A stretch of 64,000 nucleotides of DNA from Halanaerobium salsuginis (GTDB lineage: Bacteria > Bacillota > Halanaerobiia > Halanaerobiales > Halanaerobiaceae), in assembly GCF_900114545.1 (NCBI RefSeq), contig NZ_FOTI01000010.1:1-64000 (forward strand). The letters run 5' to 3'. Every line of letters starts with the position of its first letter. Position 1 is the first letter of the stretch. Positions 23,556 to 32,745 of the stretch are shown in pieces. The notes under the pieces were generated by a model. It worked only from the letters and a program-made list of their open reading frames with translations. It ran no database searches and had not been told where the DNA came from. The position numbers were made by a program, and so were the translations under genes.

Positions 23556-23603
23556 AGCAAGCAAATTCCCTGTTTAAATAAATAGGGTTTTTTGCTTGCT
23601 TTT
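23556..23603 (+). terminator. Terminator after the peroxiredoxin gene
   Basis: AGCAAGCAAATTCCCT pairs with AGGGTTTTTTGCTTGCT across an AT loop, ending in TTTT. It is about 110 bp after the stop. Confidence 0.85.
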
Positions 23604-23726: not shown

Positions 23727-24206
23727 ATGGATATATTTTTAATAATTTTGGTTTTGATTTTGTTTAGTTTAGAAATTATTGCTATTTTTTTACCGGTTTT
23801 ACCAGAAGGAGTTTTTTTCTGGTTGGCAATTATTCTTTATAAATTTATAAAAGTTGATTTAAGCTATTCGATTTATTTCTGGATTGCAGCTATTATAGTG
23901 ACTATTTTATTATTTTTAGCAGATTATCTTGCTGGAGCCTATTTTATAAAAAAAAGAGGTGGTAGTAATAAAACTATTTTAGCAGCAGGAATTGGAATAA
24001 TTTTAGGTGCTTTATTTTTAGGACCATTGGGTTTTATTATTGGACCATTTTTAACAATTTTTATTTTAGAATTTTATTTGAGCAGGAATAAAAATAAGTC
24101 ATTTCAAATTGCTTTAAGCAGTATATTTGCTTTAATAACAGGGACAACAGCTAAACTAATTTTAGAACTATTTTTAATGATCTGGTTTTTATTTATAATA
24201 TTTTAG
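23727..24206 (+). CDS. DUF456 membrane protein
   Basis: This 159-residue, very hydrophobic protein has about five predicted membrane helices. The family traits are an early FLPVLPEG segment, the DYLAGAYFIKKRGGSN turn, and the glycine-rich GIGIILGALFLGPLGFIIGPFL helix. No biochemical function is established for DUF456. It has an AAGGGGG site and lies only 21 bp before the helicase-like gene, so it heads the DNA-repair-rich transcription unit. A link to DNA repair is not implied by its sequence. Confidence 0.8.
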   Translation: MDIFLIILVLILFSLEIIAIFLPVLPEGVFFWLAIILYKFIKVDLSYSIYFWIAAIIVTILLFLADYLAGAYFIKKRGGSNKTILAAGIGIILGALFLGPLGFIIGPFLTIFILEFYLSRNKNKSFQIALSSIFALITGTTAKLILELFLMIWFLFIIF

Positions 24207-24227: not shown

Positions 24228-26207
24228 ATGTATACAATATATCAAGGAAATACTGGGAGTGGAAAGACTACCAGGATTAAGAAAAAATATCAGCAACTAG
24301 CAGCAGAAGTTGGCAGTGAAAAAATCCTGCTTTTTTTGAATAGTGCCCGAGCAGTTAGTAAATTTAGAGAAGATTTAGCTTTAAATCGGAGTGGTAATTT
24401 ATCAATATTTACTTATTTTGGTTTTATAAATCAGGAATTAAATCGTAATTGGCCGGCAGTTGAAAAAAAATATAGTGGTCAGCAGCAGACAATTGAGCCT
24501 ACTTTTATGAATATTGAAACTTCTCATTTTTTAATGAGTAATTATGTTGATCGGTATCGTAAAGCCAAATCTTATTTTCTTAACATTAAAGCTAGGCCAG
24601 TTCAAATTGCTGTTCAGCTGATTGATAATTTGAATCTTGCTGCTTTTAATTTGCTTGACTTAGAAGAACTAAAAACAAGGCTATTTAGCTGGTGTGGTGA
24701 TGATGAAGAACGCCAGGAATATGCTCAACAGTCCCTGGATATTATGCTGACTTTTCGTAAATTTTGTCTTAAGTATAGATTACTTGATTATTCAGCGGCA
24801 GTTACTATGTTTAATGATAATTTATTATTTGATAGCAAATATCAGAATCTGCTTAAAAATAAATATCAGTATTTATTAATTGATGACTTAGAAAAACTTA
24901 TTCCAGCTGGTCAAAAATTGGCAATTCAATTATTAAAAGTTGGTCTGGAAGGCTATTTTGCCTTTAATCAAAATGGAGGTTTTAATCGTTTTTTTGGGGG
25001 AGATCCGGCTGCAGCTAAACAGAACTTTTTTCCTGGGGCAGCTGAAATAATTGAACTTAAAAACAATTATACATCCAGTTCACTTAATAGTGAACTAGCT
25101 GTTGATATTAAAAAAGTTATCAAAAATAGAAAAGCAAATTTTATTACTTCTAAACTATTTATAGCTGAAATTGATAGTGAACTGAGAGGAGAAATGTTAA
25201 TTAAGGTTGCTCAACAAGTAGTTGCTTTACTTAAAAAGGGAGTAAAATCTGATCAGATAGCTATTGTTTCTCCTCAAATAGATAAAGTATTAAGCTTTAG
25301 TCTGGAAAAGATATTAACGAAAAATGGATATCAGTTAAGTAATTTTAATCGTTCTAAACGCTTAATTGATATTCCTTTTGCACGAGCTTTGTTAATTCTT
25401 TATCTTTTCTATGTCGATAAAACAGCAGCAATTGGAGTTTCTTCACTGCAGCAGGGATTATCCTTATTATTAGATTTAGATCCATTAAGATCTTATCTCT
25501 TGGCTCGAGAAATTGCAGCTTCTGGAATGAGACTAATTGATTTAGAGCAGGCTAATTTAAGAACAAAAATTGGGTTTGCTGCTTCTGAAAAGTATGATTA
25601 TTTGAAAGATTGGTTGCTAGAAAAGAAAACAGAAGAGCTTGCAATTCAGATTTTTTTTCAGGCAGTTTTTAGTGAAGTTTTAGCTCCTCTTACTCCTTCC
25701 CAAGAAGATATTTTTGCCTGTCGCCAGATGATAGAATCAGTAGCCAGATTTCAGCAAACTGTAGAAAATTTTCATGTTTCAGATCAAGATTTAAGTGAGC
25801 GTTATTTAAATATGATTTATGAAGGTACTTTAGCAGCAGAAACTATTTTTAAAGGTCAGACTAAAGAGCCAGGTGTAATTTTAGCTTCTCCTTATAAATT
25901 TCTTTTTTCACCAGAACTTAAAGGAATAGAATATTTATTTATACTTGATATTTCTAGTTCTGACTGGCTGCAGAGCATTGCTAAAGAATTAGTTAATCCA
26001 TATATTTATACGGAACAGTGGCAGCAAAATCAAGCCTGGCATGATCAATTAGATCAAGAAATTAGGCTTAATCAATTGAGTGATTTTTTAATTAGTTTAA
26101 TTTACAAGGTTAAAAGTGGTATTTATTTAGCAGATAGTTTTTTTAATAGCAGTGGAAGAGAACAGGAAGGCCCTCTTTACCGCTGGTTAAATGTTAGGAG
26201 AGATTAA
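24228..26207 (+). CDS. UvrD/AddB-like ATPase subunit with degenerate helicase motifs
   Basis: The 659-residue protein has an intact Walker A (GNTGSGKT, 7-14), a Walker B-like LLIDD (216-220), a motif III remnant around NGGFNRFFGGD (249-259) and a motif IV-like LKNNYTSS (277-284). Recognisable motifs V and VI of superfamily 1 helicases are missing in the C-terminal half, and no nuclease motif or cysteine cluster is present. AddB has a comparable pattern of working P-loop and degenerate motor, but carries a C-terminal Fe-S nuclease. Here such a nuclease is encoded two genes downstream. The gap to the next gene is 2 bp. I infer a subunit of a DNA end-processing complex; this is not a described name. 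Confidence 0.6.
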   Translation: MYTIYQGNTGSGKTTRIKKKYQQLAAEVGSEKILLFLNSARAVSKFREDLALNRSGNLSIFTYFGFINQELNRNWPAVEKKYSGQQQTIEPTFMNIETSHFLMSNYVDRYRKAKSYFLNIKARPVQIAVQLIDNLNLAAFNLLDLEELKTRLFSWCGDDEERQEYAQQSLDIMLTFRKFCLKYRLLDYSAAVTMFNDNLLFDSKYQNLLKNKYQYLLIDDLEKLIPAGQKLAIQLLKVGLEGYFAFNQNGGFNRFFGGDPAAAKQNFFPGAAEIIELKNNYTSSSLNSELAVDIKKVIKNRKANFITSKLFIAEIDSELRGEMLIKVAQQVVALLKKGVKSDQIAIVSPQIDKVLSFSLEKILTKNGYQLSNFNRSKRLIDIPFARALLILYLFYVDKTAAIGVSSLQQGLSLLLDLDPLRSYLLAREIAASGMRLIDLEQANLRTKIGFAASEKYDYLKDWLLEKKTEELAIQIFFQAVFSEVLAPLTPSQEDIFACRQMIESVARFQQTVENFHVSDQDLSERYLNMIYEGTLAAETIFKGQTKEPGVILASPYKFLFSPELKGIEYLFILDISSSDWLQSIAKELVNPYIYTEQWQQNQAWHDQLDQEIRLNQLSDFLISLIYKVKSGIYLADSFFNSSGREQEGPLYRWLNVRRD

Positions 26208-26209
26208 AA

Positions 26210-28435
26210 ATGGATTTTAGACCAAGACCTGGGCAAAAAGAAGTGCTTGCTTATCGGGGTGGGCAGCTTGCCGTGCCAGCTGTTCCTGGAGCAGGAAAGA
26301 CAACTGTGCTGGCAAAATTAGCAGCCGACTTAATTATAGAACAATTAAATCCTGATCAAAAAATATTAATTGTAACTTATATGAATTCTGCTGTAGCTAA
26401 CTTTAGAAAAAGAATTGGTGATTTTTTAGCTGAGCAGGGTTTACCCCGTAGTAGAGGCTATAGTGTCAAAACACTTCATTCATTAGCCCTTGGTATAATT
26501 AAAGAAAAGCCTGCTGCTAGATTAATTAATCAAGAGTTTGAATTAATAGATAGCAGTCGCCGCTATTATTGGATTAGAGATTTATGCAGGCAGTGGTCAG
26601 CTGCTAATCGTGACCGTTTAGTTAATTACTTTAATTTGGAAAAAAACAACTATCAATTTGATAAATATTTTAAACGATGGCAAGAAGATGATTTTCCTTC
26701 CTATGTAGCAGCAATGATTGCTTATTTTAAACTTAATTTACTACAGGGAGAAGAATTAAAAAATATGGTTAAATATTCAAATTTACGTTCCCATAATATT
26801 TTAGGGCCAGCTGCAGAAATTTTTGCTGAATATGAAGCTAGAATGAATCAATCTGGTCTGCTTGATTTTGAAGATCTTGTTCAGCATAGCTTGAAATTAC
26901 TTAAAGAAGACGCGGAATTTGCCAGTAGGATTGCCGATCAATATACTTATATTTTTGAAGATGAAGCTCAGGATTCTAACCAAGCTCAAGAAGAAATGCT
27001 CTATATATTATCGGGACAGGATAATAATTTGGTTAGAGTTGGTGATAGTAATCAGGCTATTACAGGTACTTTTACTTTATCTGATCCTCAAATTTTTCGT
27101 TCCTATTGTCAGCAAAAGTCTGTTGAAGTAGAAACAATGGCTATTTCAAGTCGGAGCAGTCAGGATATTATTGACTTAGCAAATTATTTAGTTGATTGGA
27201 GTCAGCAAGAATTTGGTGATCGTGGCATAGAGCCGCTAGAAAAAAAACATATTAAAGCTACGCCAGCTTCTGATCCAATTTCTAATCCTGAACCAGTGGG
27301 TTATCGAATTGGTAGTCAGCTTTTTGATGATTGGCCAGCAGAAAAAAAATTCCTGGCAGCTCAGGCAGTGAGAAAAGCTCGTGAAAATAATCAACAGACA
27401 ACAGCTGTTTTAATGCCGACTGGTCGTGAATTAGAAGAGATAGCAGCTGAAATCACGAAATTAGGTGGTGAATATCAACTTGCAGGGAGCAGTTCTAGAG
27501 ATAGTTTTTTAACGGAATTAGAAATTATTTTAAAATTTTTAACTGAACCAACTGCTGAAAATAACTTTCGACTTTTATTTAACGAAATTTTTACCGATCA
27601 GACTGAAAATAGTGATTTAGAAGAACTTCTGGATAAAGTGCTGAATGAAAAGTCATTGCAGAATTTAATTTATCCTCTAGCAGGTTTAAATAGTGATAGT
27701 TTCGATTTAGAAATCAGAAAGTTTGCTAGTTTTAATTATTTTTTAAACAGCTTAAAGAAAATTCAGGGCTGGTTGGAAGCTGGTTTAGAATTGCCACCCG
27801 ATGAGCTGGTTTTATTTTTAGCAGAAAGAGTTGAGTTAAGTGGTAAAAAATTAGCTTTAGCTCAAAACTTGGCACTTGAGTTTGGTCGGCTTTTACAGCA
27901 GAATCCAGCCTGGCAGCTCGATCAATTAACAGCAGAAATGCCGGCAATTAGAGATCGTTTACGTCAATTTGCAGAAACTTTAACTGAAATGGAAGGCTTT
28001 GAAGAATCACCTGATTTAGTTAGTCTTTCTACACTACATAAAGCAAAAGGAATGGAGTGGGATACTGTTTTTATTGGAGGTATTACTTCAAGTCAATTTC
28101 AATATGATGATGACGATTATTTTATGGGAGAAAAATTTTATTTAACTCCTGAAGTTAGAAATCCTGAAGCTGCCGCCCGGGCTGAATTAGATTATTTGCT
28201 GCATGAAAAAAAAGCAGTTGATCCAGACCGTAAAGCTCGTCAGGAACTAATTGCCGAAAGAATTAGATTGTTATATGTAGGAATAACCAGGGCACGCGAA
28301 AACTTATTTTTAAGCGCTCATGCCAAAAAAAATGGTTGGGATAAGGATCCCGCCTATGTATTTATAGCTTTAAGTAATTTTATTGAAAGCGCAGCGGCTG
28401 CAAAAGCCAGCTTGAGCTCAGAGGAGGCTAATTAA
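26210..28435 (+). CDS. UvrD/AddA-like superfamily 1 DNA helicase
   Basis: This 741-residue protein has a full SF1A set: motif I VPGAGKTT (25-32), Ia VTYMNSAVANF, motif II FEDEAQD (249-255, the DEXQD variant), motif III VGDSNQAI (277-284), motif V STLHKAKGMEW (607-617) and motif VI RIRLLYVGITRARENLFLS (684-702). Motif IV reads SSRSS, not the usual NYRS. It is clearly different from the PcrA at 40652. No nuclease domain is fused. Position between the degenerate ATPase and a Fe-S nuclease (0-2 bp gaps) suggests it is the motor of a multi-subunit end-resection enzyme. A stand-alone repair helicase is the alternative. Confidence 0.8.
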   Translation: MDFRPRPGQKEVLAYRGGQLAVPAVPGAGKTTVLAKLAADLIIEQLNPDQKILIVTYMNSAVANFRKRIGDFLAEQGLPRSRGYSVKTLHSLALGIIKEKPAARLINQEFELIDSSRRYYWIRDLCRQWSAANRDRLVNYFNLEKNNYQFDKYFKRWQEDDFPSYVAAMIAYFKLNLLQGEELKNMVKYSNLRSHNILGPAAEIFAEYEARMNQSGLLDFEDLVQHSLKLLKEDAEFASRIADQYTYIFEDEAQDSNQAQEEMLYILSGQDNNLVRVGDSNQAITGTFTLSDPQIFRSYCQQKSVEVETMAISSRSSQDIIDLANYLVDWSQQEFGDRGIEPLEKKHIKATPASDPISNPEPVGYRIGSQLFDDWPAEKKFLAAQAVRKARENNQQTTAVLMPTGRELEEIAAEITKLGGEYQLAGSSSRDSFLTELEIILKFLTEPTAENNFRLLFNEIFTDQTENSDLEELLDKVLNEKSLQNLIYPLAGLNSDSFDLEIRKFASFNYFLNSLKKIQGWLEAGLELPPDELVLFLAERVELSGKKLALAQNLALEFGRLLQQNPAWQLDQLTAEMPAIRDRLRQFAETLTEMEGFEESPDLVSLSTLHKAKGMEWDTVFIGGITSSQFQYDDDDYFMGEKFYLTPEVRNPEAAARAELDYLLHEKKAVDPDRKARQELIAERIRLLYVGITRARENLFLSAHAKKNGWDKDPAYVFIALSNFIESAAAAKASLSSEEAN

Positions 28436-29233
28436 ATGGCTGTTTCAGAATTGAAAGAGCTTTACTTTTCTCAGTCATCACTAGCTATTTTTCAAAGCTG
28501 TCAAAAAAAATTCTATTATCGTTATTTAGCTGGGTTATATTGGCCAGCAGAGTGGGGAATGAACGAAGAAATTAGACAGGATCTCAAGCTAGGTCAGCAG
28601 TTTCATTTGTTAGCCCAGAGATATTATCAACCTACTTTAGAAGAAACAACTTTGGTTAGTAAACAACCTCTACAGGCCTGGCTGAATAGGCTAAAAAGAT
28701 TCTGCTCGGCAGTTGACATAATTGCTGCTGAACAAGAGTTGCGTTTGAGAGAAGCTGAGTTTAAGCTATTGGCTAAATATGATTTACTTAAATATGATAG
28801 TTCTCAGGCAAGAATCATTATCTATGATTGGAAAACTGATAAAAAAGATTTTAAACAGAAAGATATTAAAAGTTCAATGCAGACTCGTTTTTATCTTTAT
28901 TTAATGGTAAAGGCTGGTTACAAATATTTTGCTCAAGATTATAAATTGGAGACAATGCCTTGTTTAATTTACTGGAATCCCCGTTATCCAGGTCAGCCAG
29001 TTAGCCTAAAATATGATAAAAAGAGTTTTGAGCAAGATCAAACTTTTTTTGAAGAATTATTGAAGGAAATTCTAACTAGCAGTGAGTTTCCGCTGACTGA
29101 AGATATAAATAAATGCAGATTTTGTGAATATAGACCAATTTGTCGTGGAAAAAGAAGTGAAGCTATAGAGGTTTTTGAAGAAGATCTCGATCTAAATCTT
29201 GATTGGGAATCAGTTGAAGAATTTGAATTTTAA
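28436..29233 (+). CDS. PD-(D/E)XK nuclease with Fe-S cysteine cluster (RecB/Cas4/AddB type)
   Basis: The 265-residue protein has all the parts of a RecB-family nuclease. These are H57 in the LGQQFH segment, D116 (LAKYD), D131-x-K133 (IYDWKT) and the Q149-x3-Y153 motif (QTRFY). One cysteine lies near the N-terminus (C22), and C227-x2-C230-x5-C236 near the C-terminus is the arrangement that holds a [4Fe-4S] cluster in AddB and Cas4. There are no other cas genes or repeats nearby, so Cas4 in adaptation is unlikely. The ATG directly follows the helicase stop. It probably supplies the nuclease missing from the two upstream helicase-like proteins. Confidence 0.85.
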   Translation: MAVSELKELYFSQSSLAIFQSCQKKFYYRYLAGLYWPAEWGMNEEIRQDLKLGQQFHLLAQRYYQPTLEETTLVSKQPLQAWLNRLKRFCSAVDIIAAEQELRLREAEFKLLAKYDLLKYDSSQARIIIYDWKTDKKDFKQKDIKSSMQTRFYLYLMVKAGYKYFAQDYKLETMPCLIYWNPRYPGQPVSLKYDKKSFEQDQTFFEELLKEILTSSEFPLTEDINKCRFCEYRPICRGKRSEAIEVFEEDLDLNLDWESVEEFEF

Positions 29234-29264: not shown

Positions 29265-31598
29265 ATGATAATAAAAAAAGCAGCTGAGTTTGAACCTGCT
29301 TCTGAGCTAGTAAAGTATTTTAAAAATAAAAAGCTGGCCTGTCTTGCTGTCAAACGAGGTCTAGATAGTTATCAAAAAATAAGTGAATTTATTGAGCCAG
29401 ATAAATATATTCCGCTAAGTTTTAATAAGTTCCCTAAACTTGACCAAATCGTTAAATTTATTGCTGATCATATCAAACATAAAAATAGAATTTTAATTTA
29501 TGGAGATTATGATGTAGATGGAATAACTTCAACAGCAATACTAGTAGGGGCTTTAAAGGATTTAGGAGCAGATGTGATTTATCATCTGCCAGATAGATTT
29601 AAAGAAGGTTATGGTCTTAATCAGACTGTTCTGGCTGGCTATCAGTCAAAAGTTGATTTAGTTATTAGTTGTGATTGTGGAATTACCAATTATGCTGAAG
29701 TGAAATTTGCGAAAGAGATTGGTTTAGATTTTATAGTTACTGATCATCATGAATTACCAGATAGGCTTCCACCAGCTGATTATGTTATTTCACCCCGAAT
29801 GTTAGGAAAAGACAGTCAGGGCTATTGGCTCCCTGGAGCTGGTATGGCTTATTATTTAGTTAAAGCACTTTATAATTTAGCTGGAGATGAGAAAGCTGCT
29901 GAAGATTTTCTGGATTTACTTCTTTTAGCTATTATTGCTGATGTAGTTCCTCTGCAGGGGGAGAATCGCTATTTGTTTAAAACTGGTCTGGCAAAGTTAA
30001 GGCAAACTGATCGAATTGGACTAACAGCTCTTTATAATGAATTAGAACTTAATCGATCTGAAATAAATGAAAAAACTCTTGGCTTTCAAATTGGTCCTTT
30101 ACTTAATTCAGCGGGCCGAATAGATAGTGCTGAAAAAGGACTTAAACTTTTGCTAGCTGAAGATAGGCGGACAGCTGCTGTTCTGGCAGCAGAATTAAAG
30201 TCATTAAATGAAAGAAGAAAAAAAATTAGCCAGCAAATTTATCAACAATTGGTAGAAACTTTAAATAGTGATAGCCCGCAACCAGTTGTTAGTTATAACT
30301 CTGATTGGCATCAAGGCGTAATTGGTATAGCAGCAGGCCGAGTTGTGGAAAATTTTAATTGTCCAGCCGTTTTAATGACCAATAGTAGAGCAAATGATCT
30401 AATTACTGGTTCTGCTCGTTCAATTACAGGGATTAATATTAATCAGCTAATTAATAAGTGTGCTGATCTTTTAGAAAAAAATGGTGGACATGCAGCAGCA
30501 GCAGGATTTTCACTTAAAAAAGCTAACTTAGAAAAATTCAAATTAAGATTACAAAGATTGTTGGTAGAAGCTTTAAATAACCAGCAGATTAAACCTACTA
30601 TTAAGGCTGATCTCAACTTAGAATTTGCTGAGCTTAATAATAATTTTTATCAGAAACTAAGATTATTTGCTCCTTTTGGTGAAGCCAATCCTGAACCGAT
30701 TATTTATTTAGAAGGAGAGATTATCAGCAGCAGAGAGATTTCAGCTGGTAAACACAAAAAATTTGTGTTAGGTTCTAGTAAAAGTTCAAACAGCAGCAGA
30801 ATAACAGCACTCTGGTGGTGGGCTGGAAATACAGATAATAATTATCGACAGCAAATAGCTTGTAATTTAACTGAAAATATTTATCAAGGTAGAAAAAGCT
30901 TACAGCTTGAAATTAAAGCTCTTGTTAGCTGTCAAAATGAAATATCTCAACTAACTGAAGCTAATAATTCTGCTTCAAAATTCGATCAGATGAAGGTTGA
31001 GCTAATAGACTGGCGCCAAAAAGATCTTGAACTTTTGAAATCAGGTCAACCTGAAACAGCTTATTTTGCTGAAGGAAGTGGAAGTTTTAAATTAAATCTA
31101 TATCCTATTTTTAATCGAAACTATTATCGACAGGTTAAACAACTTGTTATCTTGACAATTCCACCAACTCCTGCTATTTTAAAAGAAGTAATCTTGCTTA
31201 CTGAATGTGAACGGTTAATTTTAGTAAACTATAGACAACAGGGAAAAAAAGAAAAATTTATTAATTTACTAATGAAACGTTTAAAATATTGTTTTGAGCA
31301 GGAAAATGGAATTTTTAATTTAAATCAGGCTGCTCTTGATCTTGCTACTACAGTGCTAACTGTTAAACGAGGGATTGACTATTTGGCAGCTGCCGGGAAA
31401 CTAAACTATGAATTTATTGCTTATCAAGAAATATTAATAACTAAAAATGGCGAAGTAAATCGTGGTCAAAAAAATTTGCGAGGTTCTGAATTAACAAGAC
31501 TACTTAGCTCCACTGCTGCTTTTAGAAGGTTTATAAAAAATAAGCCAATCCAACAGTTGCAGAAATTTATCGATAATTTGTTAAATAGAGAAATTTAG
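29265..31598 (+). CDS. recJ: Single-stranded-DNA-specific exonuclease RecJ
   Basis: The 777-residue protein has the DHH phosphoesterase motifs YGDYDVDG (79-86), ISCDCGI (134-140) and D160-H161-H162, the DHHA1 signature with NGGHAAAAGF, and an OB-like middle region. The last 200 residues are more divergent, as in other Firmicutes RecJ. It degrades single-stranded DNA 5' to 3' in recombination and mismatch repair. It follows the nuclease gene by 31 bp, so four DNA-processing genes are cotranscribed. The start follows a moderate GGGGTGA site. Confidence 0.94.
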   Translation: MIIKKAAEFEPASELVKYFKNKKLACLAVKRGLDSYQKISEFIEPDKYIPLSFNKFPKLDQIVKFIADHIKHKNRILIYGDYDVDGITSTAILVGALKDLGADVIYHLPDRFKEGYGLNQTVLAGYQSKVDLVISCDCGITNYAEVKFAKEIGLDFIVTDHHELPDRLPPADYVISPRMLGKDSQGYWLPGAGMAYYLVKALYNLAGDEKAAEDFLDLLLLAIIADVVPLQGENRYLFKTGLAKLRQTDRIGLTALYNELELNRSEINEKTLGFQIGPLLNSAGRIDSAEKGLKLLLAEDRRTAAVLAAELKSLNERRKKISQQIYQQLVETLNSDSPQPVVSYNSDWHQGVIGIAAGRVVENFNCPAVLMTNSRANDLITGSARSITGININQLINKCADLLEKNGGHAAAAGFSLKKANLEKFKLRLQRLLVEALNNQQIKPTIKADLNLEFAELNNNFYQKLRLFAPFGEANPEPIIYLEGEIISSREISAGKHKKFVLGSSKSSNSSRITALWWWAGNTDNNYRQQIACNLTENIYQGRKSLQLEIKALVSCQNEISQLTEANNSASKFDQMKVELIDWRQKDLELLKSGQPETAYFAEGSGSFKLNLYPIFNRNYYRQVKQLVILTIPPTPAILKEVILLTECERLILVNYRQQGKKEKFINLLMKRLKYCFEQENGIFNLNQAALDLATTVLTVKRGIDYLAAAGKLNYEFIAYQEILITKNGEVNRGQKNLRGSELTRLLSSTAAFRRFIKNKPIQQLQKFIDNLLNREI

Positions 31599-31621: not shown

Positions 31622-32338
31622 GTGGAAATAAGAAAGAGTCATTATTTACAGGGAGCAGCTGATGCAGTTGGATTGACGGTTATTATTGATGTTTTTCGAG
31701 CTTATACAACAGCTGCTTATATTTTAAACCAGAATCCTACTGCTTTATTCATAGTTAGTCAGGCAGAAACAGCTTATAAATTAAAAGATAATTATTCTGA
31801 TATTATTTTAGTAGGAGAAAGAAAAGGTATTAAATTAGCTGATTTTAATTTTAATAATTCACCTTATTTTATTTCCCGGGAAAATTTAACTAATAAAATA
31901 GTAGTTTTGAGTACAAGTGCAGGAACGAAAGGAATTATTGCGGCTGCCCAAGCAGATACAATTTTAACCGGTAGTTTTGTCAATATTTCTGCAGTAGCAG
32001 AATATATTAAATATAAAAATCCTGCCACTGTATCTATAGTAGCAATGGGCAATAATGGTGCTACACCAGCGGCTGAAGATGAATTATATCTTAAATTATT
32101 AAATGAATTGTTAACTAAAAAGATCAAATTACCACAGGTAGAGCAGTTAAAAGCAGAATTACGTTCACCAGCAGGTGATCGCTTTTTTAATCAGATAACT
32201 CAGCAAGAAATGCCAGCTGAAGACTTTGACTTTTGTCTAGAGATAGATAAATTTGACTTCATTATTCAAGCTGATAAAATAAAAACTGACATTTACCAAT
32301 TAAAAAAGATTGACAATTATTTAACTCAGGACAGGTGA
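31622..32338 (+). CDS. comB: ComB-like 2-phosphosulfolactate phosphatase
   Basis: A 238-residue member of the ComB family (COG2045). In methanogens it dephosphorylates phosphosulfolactate during coenzyme M synthesis. Bacterial members occur in organisms without coenzyme M, where sulfolactate or another phosphoester may be the target. VIIDVFRAYTTAAYIL, LSTSAGTKGI and AMGNNGATPAAEDELY are the family motifs. The start is GTG after AAAGGAG. It ends inside the downstream start region. Its place behind recJ has no obvious metabolic logic. Family is confident; true substrate is unknown. Confidence 0.85.
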   Translation: MEIRKSHYLQGAADAVGLTVIIDVFRAYTTAAYILNQNPTALFIVSQAETAYKLKDNYSDIILVGERKGIKLADFNFNNSPYFISRENLTNKIVVLSTSAGTKGIIAAAQADTILTGSFVNISAVAEYIKYKNPATVSIVAMGNNGATPAAEDELYLKLLNELLTKKIKLPQVEQLKAELRSPAGDRFFNQITQQEMPAEDFDFCLEIDKFDFIIQADKIKTDIYQLKKIDNYLTQDR

Positions 32339-32343
32339 TAAAA

Positions 32344-32628
32344 ATGAAAAGAGGATCTTCTTTACTTTTAATAATTTTAATTTTGCTTGTATTTGCTGCT
32401 GTTATGAATCCAACTCGGGAAGAGTTTATTGACTGGGGAGTAAATGAAATTCAAAATCAGGCAGAAAATGACTTTACAAGAGTTTTAGGAGGCGCAGTGG
32501 CAGGGCCAATGCTTGAAATGCAGACTGAAGCACATGATTATGTGTTTTTTTCAACTTTTAGTTTACAAAAGGCTGATCGTGAGATAACTTATTTAGGTGT
32601 TTTTAATACTTTTATTACTTTCGATTAA
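32344..32628 (+). CDS. Small DUF4359-like protein with N-terminal membrane anchor
   Basis: About 94 residues: a positively charged start, one hydrophobic helix (LLLIILILLVFAAVM), then NPTREEFIDWGVNEI and a beta-rich end (YVFFSTFS...YLGVFNTFITF). The NP-x4-F start and the FFS...GVFNTF end resemble DUF4359. It is probably a membrane-anchored or exported protein of unknown function. The ATG at 32344 is preferred over the GTG at 32335 because AGGTGA, overlapping the comB stop, then has good spacing. It is the last gene of the 23727-32628 unit. Confidence 0.65.
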   Translation: MKRGSSLLLIILILLVFAAVMNPTREEFIDWGVNEIQNQAENDFTRVLGGAVAGPMLEMQTEAHDYVFFSTFSLQKADREITYLGVFNTFITFD

Positions 32629-32706: not shown

Positions 32707-32745
32707 GGCTCAGTTTAAGTAAAAAACTTAAGCTGAGCTGTTTTA
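32707..32745 (+). terminator. Terminator of the repair-rich transcription unit
   Basis: GCTCAGTTTAAGT and ACTTAAGCTGAGC form a 13-bp stem with one G-U pair around AAAAA, followed by TGTTTTAG. Confidence 0.85.

Follow-up and report, generated by a model that had tools for sequence, protein, structure and literature searches.

What do three abutting genes, coding for a degenerate helicase, a complete helicase and a separate nuclease, do beside a recJ gene in a genome that also codes for an AddAB-type pair? The question is raised by the first 64,000 nucleotides of contig NZ_FOTI01000010.1 of Halanaerobium salsuginis (assembly GCF_900114545.1), hereafter the window, in which all the features described below lie on the forward strand. 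P1 (24228 to 26207) codes for an AddB-like, motif-degenerate ATPase of 659 amino acids (aa) with a superfamily 1A (SF1A) helicase fold and without nuclease, P2 (26210 to 28435) for a complete SF1A helicase of the UvrD/Rep/AddA type (741 aa), without a nuclease domain, and P3 (28436 to 29233) for a stand-alone PD-(D/E)XK nuclease of 265 aa with a four-cysteine cluster. The gaps between these open reading frames (ORFs) are 2 and 0 bp, and the genes lie exactly where an initial annotation of the window had placed them. It had also noted that a recJ follows; this gene, recJ2 (29265 to 31598), starts 31 bp past the end of P3 and codes for a module-specific RecJ paralogue of 777 aa with intact DHH/DHHA1 motifs. 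Judging by the alignments, the catalytic residues of P2, P3 and RecJ2 are kept and the motor motifs of P1 are degraded. The module probably unwinds and trims DNA ends, and we consider it rather likely that it is a four-component, ATP-driven DNA-end-processing machine existing beside AddAB.

P1 was detected in 26 of 41 relatives and in all 12 genomes of the genus, with 69 to 74% identity to the named Halanaerobium species. Full-length identity is 40 to 49% in further families of its order and class, and this conservation far exceeds chance. The order P1-P2-P3-recJ is found in 22 of the 25 loci of relatives (the remaining three end at contig edges); in some Halanaerobium genomes, recJ is set apart from P3 by an additional stretch or ORF. 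Throughout the phylum, 27 of 398 genomes had P1 at an E value of <1e-60, weaker matches being other helicases. Among 20 loci read in other families, 16 had the four genes in order, two were cut by the contig and two (in genomes G084 and G380) were without recJ. None of 18 relatives devoid of P1 had P2 or a module-like P3, i.e., inheritance is all-or-none. The initial annotation had proposed a comparison of gene order among related genomes, and in this comparison the trio proved to be conserved as a unit, its order being kept across the phylum; on these sequences, P1-P2-P3-recJ2 is best described as an evolutionary unit. Salinibacter ruber M8 (Rhodothermota) carries the same four genes, in the same order, on its plasmid pSR56; their annotations read, from P1 to recJ, hypothetical protein, ATP-dependent helicase, PD-(D/E)XK nuclease and RecJ, and this plasmid copy points to horizontal movement between phyla. 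Directly upstream of it there is an XRE-IrrE (Peptidase_M78) regulator (L207:5999-7177), of a kind associated with stress or with the control of mobile elements. The megaplasmid pILYOP01 of Ilyobacter polytropus codes for a UvrD-domain, P1-like protein of 657 aa (L208:10001-11974), which was not counted as a module because no P2, P3 or recJ stands beside it. A search of 50,697 phage records and of viral contigs found no P1, and PHROGs gave only generic helicase and exonuclease matches, so that a phage origin of the module was rejected.

The Walker A motif of P1 (GNTGSGKT, residues 7 to 14; 24246 to 24269) starts only 7 residues into the chain, as in AddB, without a Q-motif extension. Among 34 aligned homologues, G7, G12 and the motif II Asp (Walker B) are present in all and K13 in 33, the position of the catalytic Glu is occupied by D, N or E (20, 12 and 2 sequences, respectively), and the motif III Gln is lost, in agreement with the intact Walker A and degenerate helicase motifs described in the initial annotation. 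The only Pfam match was UvrD-helicase at 22 bits, slightly under the cut-off, no P1-specific model exists in NCBIfam, Pfam or PADLOC, and single-sequence searches of the PDB with P1 or P3 gave no useful match. An AlphaFold2 model built from 19 homologues (predicted local distance difference test [pLDDT], 83) has the full four-domain SF1A fold. Its structural Z-scores (UvrD, Rep and PcrA, about 23 to 28; AdnB, 24 to 25; AddB, about 22) do not, taken alone, single out AddB. In template modeling (TM) score, however, AddB and AdnB ranked highest (up to 0.64), and the structural match starts at residue 2 of AddB versus residues 16 to 26 in UvrD-type helicases (23 to 26 in UvrD itself). Among the profiles tried, AddB was the best match of P1 (score of 144, P1 residues 3 to 580 on AddB residues 16 to 577), followed by P2 (125), AddA (115) and PcrA (102). 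P1 combines a helicase fold, a Walker A motif and degraded helicase motifs, i.e., it is AddB-like, and this is what AddB and RecC also show, the pattern of a helicase fold retained for some purpose other than translocation (PMC4824097).

P2, by contrast with P1, has all its SF1A motifs (Q motif, Walker A, DExQD and III to VI), whose residues vary little or not at all among 35 homologues. Its chain stops after motif VI with no nuclease domain, as expected from its initial description as a full SF1A helicase without nuclease. Among the profiles tried, its best match was AddA (score of 450), slightly ahead of PcrA (410). Against the AddA equivalog TIGR02785, P2 scores 123.6 bits, well under the cut-off of 707.65, which leaves it outside that family, and its bit scores with the rep and pcrA models are slightly better than with the addA one. 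In an unrooted FastTree phylogeny (634 columns), all the P2 proteins formed one clade (0.90), and the AddA proteins were split from P2 and PcrA by a supported branch (0.968). We rejected the view of P2 as an AddA that has lost its nuclease as far as descent is concerned, the tree placing it outside the AddA clade. P2 would function like the AddA motor, yet on present sampling it is not an AddA by descent.

The nuclease P3 (Pfam PDDEXK_1, 101 bits) shows the complete signature of the RecB/Cas4 type, H-D-D-K-QxxxY plus one N-terminal Cys and a C-terminal CxxC-x5-C. Residues H57, D116, D131, K133, Q149, Y153, C22, C227, C230 and C236 are kept in the 34 to 35 sequences having these positions, with a single D131Y as the sole exception; the four cysteines that the initial annotation had singled out in this PD-(D/E)XK nuclease are thus invariant. 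It had also called P3 a stand-alone AddB-type nuclease. Stand-alone and of the RecB/Cas4 type it is, but its profile is no closer to AddB nucleases (105) than to those of AddA (107). The structural model (pLDDT, 84) comes closest to the nuclease of AdnA (Z 16.8), followed by ACE1 (Z 14.4) and by the nuclease of AddB (Z 13.8). The top Foldseek matches were to ACE1, the cyanobacterial Argonaute-associated Cas4 nuclease, and ACE1 proteins were also the only PDB matches of the sequence profile (E values of 0.004 and 0.42). The last 22 residues (244 to 265; 29165 to 29230), ending in EEDLDLNLDWESVEEFEF, are predicted to be disordered (pLDDT below 50). Most orthologues share this acidic, aromatic-ended tail, with a pattern near [ED]DLxLDWExIEEIxF; it is shorter in Salinibacter and missing in G380, while the P3s of the f20 and f109 genomes run past it. 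No such tail was found in the AddB C termini examined. Its conservation despite the predicted disorder suggests a docking peptide.

RecJ2 scores 489.8 bits against TIGR00644 (cut-off, 396.9) and is thus a RecJ, with the DHH and DHHA1 motifs kept in 37 of 37 sequences, bar one H409N. It is not the housekeeping enzyme, since RecJ1 of the same genome is on another contig (C52), but a dedicated paralogue of the module. Cys136 is found in all 37 RecJ2 and in no RecJ1, and in the RecJ tree the trio-linked RecJs make up one clade (37 rows; support, 100/99). Within a set of 21 genomes, two full or near-full recJ genes are present in 11 of the 12 with the trio and only one in eight of the nine without it (Fisher P of about 4e-4, worked by hand and ignoring kinship). 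The exceptions are G380 (trio and one recJ) and G027, where there is no trio and the second recJ has an in-frame stop. Because the copy number tracks the trio and the linked RecJs form one clade, we regard recJ2 as the dedicated fourth member, a role that the initial annotation had missed; neither RecJ1 nor the AddAB-type pair described below was visible to it in the window. The second recJ of G027 (C11:5893-7560; L184) falls, on a very long branch, outside the clade of RecJ2.

The module does not make up for a missing AddAB. On contig C29 of the same genome, a gene for an AddB-like protein of 870 aa, which ends in a PDDEXK domain, is adjacent to that of a 1053-aa RecB/AddA-like helicase (recB, 184 bits; RecB-like helicase, 233 bits). 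This pair (L058:3958-9715) is divergent and far under the NCBIfam cut-offs for AddA and AddB, so it may escape annotation. Its conservation extends to relatives that have the module and to others that lack it. Neighboring AddB and AddA genes were confirmed in 17 module-bearing genomes, at least 16 of them in addition to the present one, and in six genomes devoid of the module. Therefore, module and AddAB are not alternatives to each other, and replacement of a missing AddAB was rejected, complete pairs having been found. The initial annotation had set against its own proposal a complete AddAB elsewhere in the genome combined with a trio that is not conserved; the former exists, on C29, and the latter proved false. 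A second, more canonical AddAB pair (879 and 1066 aa; L060:5346-11178) accompanies the divergent one in the congener G009; possibly, it replaces an inactivated nuclease, the P3 of this genome (L075) being the one with D131Y. Two metagenome-assembled genomes, G028 and G031 (L088:1-5663 and L087:12910-17999), have a pair of ORFs of AddB and AddA size a few kilobases from the module, of 850 and 1036 aa in G028, with the smaller one cut by the end of the stretch in G031.

The sequences show the parts, their motifs, their conservation and their co-inheritance; we infer a physical complex, a choice of strand, a product and a cellular role. Within AddAB, cutting of the 5'-ended strand falls to the nuclease of AddB and, until Chi is bound, cutting of the 3'-ended strand to that of AddA, while the inactive helicase half of AddB scans for Chi (PMC4824097). 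Carrying over the strand assignment from this biochemistry (PMC4824097), P2 would move 3' to 5' on the 3'-ended strand, unwinding the duplex end, and P1, a non-translocating helicase fold, would hold or read the unwound strand, as AddB and RecC do for Chi. P3 would cut the 5'-ended strand, as the nuclease of AddB does, RecJ2, whose family is one of 5'-3' exonucleases, would degrade the displaced 5' tail, and the acidic C-terminal peptide of P3 may dock onto a partner, possibly RecJ2. Because the module is devoid of an AddA-type nuclease for the 3' strand, the product would be a long 3' single-stranded tail from the outset, with no Chi needed to switch off the cutting of that strand.

Several observations weigh against this machine as we picture it. 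The strand assignments borrowed from AddAB may be wrong, since P2 is not an AddA by the tree and the placement of P3 within the RecB/Cas4 nucleases is ambiguous. The congener G009 carries D131Y in P3, and G380 and G084 have the trio with no adjacent recJ, so RecJ2 would not always be needed. The tree distances of the four proteins correlate (r of 0.77 to 0.92), but not clearly above those of the unlinked RecJ1 (10-genome subset), which makes this correlation uninformative as proof of a complex. The missing recJ would also suit a set of independent enzymes that are only co-transcribed, P2 acting with RecJ2 (like RecQ with RecJ), P3 as a separate exonuclease and P1 as a regulator, and RecJ does pair with a separate helicase in other bacteria. 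We consider this improbable, given that the trio is inherited all-or-none and that a degenerate helicase fold is of little use alone, the comparable AddB and RecC acting within complexes. Just as improbable is a split AddAB, with P1 and P3 derived from an ancestral AddB and P2 from an AddA whose nuclease was lost. The best profile matches of P1 (the N-terminal half of AddB) and P2 (AddA), together with the AddB/Cas4-type cysteine cluster of P3, would fit such an origin; however, P2 is excluded from the supported AddA group and its addA score is so far below the cut-off that rep and pcrA do slightly better, P3 is equidistant from the AddA and AddB nucleases and structurally nearest to AdnA and ACE1, and complete AddAB pairs coexist with the module. 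Moreover, the module does not have the helicase-like half and the nuclease fused in one chain, as in AddB, P1 and P3 being separate in every locus examined. The description of the trio in the initial annotation as parts of AddAB is right in that these proteins correspond to the functional components of an AddAB-like machine, but they are not those of AddAB itself taken apart.

With the four-component machine as the preferred reading, its cellular role could be in repair or in the removal of incoming DNA. The same biochemistry, destructive on invading linear or replicating DNA, would provide a barrier to foreign DNA, interfering with plasmids or phages or limiting the uptake of transforming DNA, a possibility that we hold tentatively. 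The patchy distribution, the plasmid-borne copy in Salinibacter and the presence of AddAB, which makes a plain repair role redundant, all fit such removal, and the matches of P3 to ACE1 lean the same way. So does a screen in Synechococcus elongatus (PMC10653904), where both RSF1010 and natural transformation are limited by a Cas4-like nuclease together with an accessory UvrD and a RecJ paralogue. This is a lead that draws on the likeness of the two parts lists. On the other hand, the stable housekeeping neighborhood in Halanaerobium and the mostly ordinary neighbors elsewhere, with only isolated defense-like matches among 83 flanking proteins, fit repair, and a defense-island context was rejected because the neighbors are mostly housekeeping genes. 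Neither the phage nor the viral collections held a relative of P1, and the link to Argonaute prompted by ACE1 was rejected, as there was no PIWI domain in 35 genomes (25 of them with the module). PADLOC (2023) gave only generic GajB and Cas4 model matches, and the lack of a catalogued system there leaves room for a defense role. More speculatively, the module may be a horizontally mobile four-subunit helicase-nuclease with its own RecJ, spread across Bacillota-type families and Rhodothermota, that generates 3' tails or destroys incoming DNA without AddA-type cutting of the 3' strand, and the Cas4/UvrD/RecJcy anti-plasmid genes of S. elongatus could be a dispersed relative.

In Halanaerobium, the module belongs to an apparent transcription unit between two terminator-like sites (23568 to 23587 upstream and 32707 to 32739 at its end, both by consensus match only) that comprises DUF456, P1, P2, P3, recJ, a ComB-family phosphatase and a small ORF. 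The gene of the DUF456 membrane protein (23727 to 24206) is linked to the module only in Halanaerobium-type genomes and is probably a passenger. The phosphatase gene and the small ORF (31622 to 32628) are not linked to the module elsewhere. Control by the SOS response was rejected, since matches to the SOS box with up to two mismatches were near the chance number (49 versus 36) and there were none in the promoter region upstream of P1.

The machines that textbooks give for bacterial DNA ends are RecBCD, AddAB and AdnAB. Like AddAB of the Bacillus subtilis type, the module has an inactive-helicase subunit with an intact Walker A starting at the N terminus and, next to it, an active helicase of SF1A. 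Both systems also have a RecB-family nuclease of the iron-sulfur type, in which one Cys is N-terminal and three are C-terminal. It differs in having three or four proteins instead of two, a stand-alone nuclease with a conserved acidic tail, no C-terminal nuclease of the AddA kind and a dedicated RecJ, and in coexisting with AddAB. In the mycobacterial AdnAB, the nuclease domain of AdnA is structurally the nearest to P3 and AdnB shares the fold of P1. However, AdnA and AdnB each have a nuclease domain fused to a helicase module, whereas here the nuclease is separate and one of the helicases has lost motifs. RecQ-RecJ, in RecFOR resection, also makes 3' tails with a 3'-5' helicase and RecJ; in the module, the RecJ is a second paralogue, encoded with the helicase and a further nuclease, and RecJ1 is separate. 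P2 matches the GajB models of Gabija (147 bits), but there is no GajA-type ATPase-nuclease in the module; a Gabija-like pair is found on contig C33 of the same genome (L065:2632-6434), where the gene of a 657-aa ATPase/nuclease of the OLD type precedes that of a 606-aa UvrD-like helicase. ACE1 and the Cas4/UvrD/RecJcy set of S. elongatus have, by description, a similar parts list, although no Argonaute was found in the 25 module genomes checked, and we know of no counterpart of P1 in that set. An unfused UvrD-type helicase adjoining a pfam12705 Cas4-like nuclease was described by Hudaiberdiev et al. in 2017 as a predicted operon of several bacteria, mostly Clostridiales, outside defense contexts, and read as DNA repair (PMC5704561). 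By its description, this operon may be the P2-P3 part of the module, although neither an AddB-like P1 nor a RecJ paralogue is mentioned in that text (PMC5704561), and no description of the four-gene unit was found in the open-access papers searched. It is unusual for a helicase-nuclease set to have a RecJ paralogue of its own, and with scanner, motor and nuclease on separate chains, one activity could be eliminated at a time, whereas AddAB and RecBCD make this difficult. The presence of the module beside AddAB and on a plasmid raises the question of whether it serves as an additional repair pathway or as a weapon against DNA from outside, and, being recognizable by profile and gene order, it can be traced across genomes. 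Altogether, it is best filed as a variant among the bacterial helicase-nuclease end-processing machines rather than as a member of AddAB.

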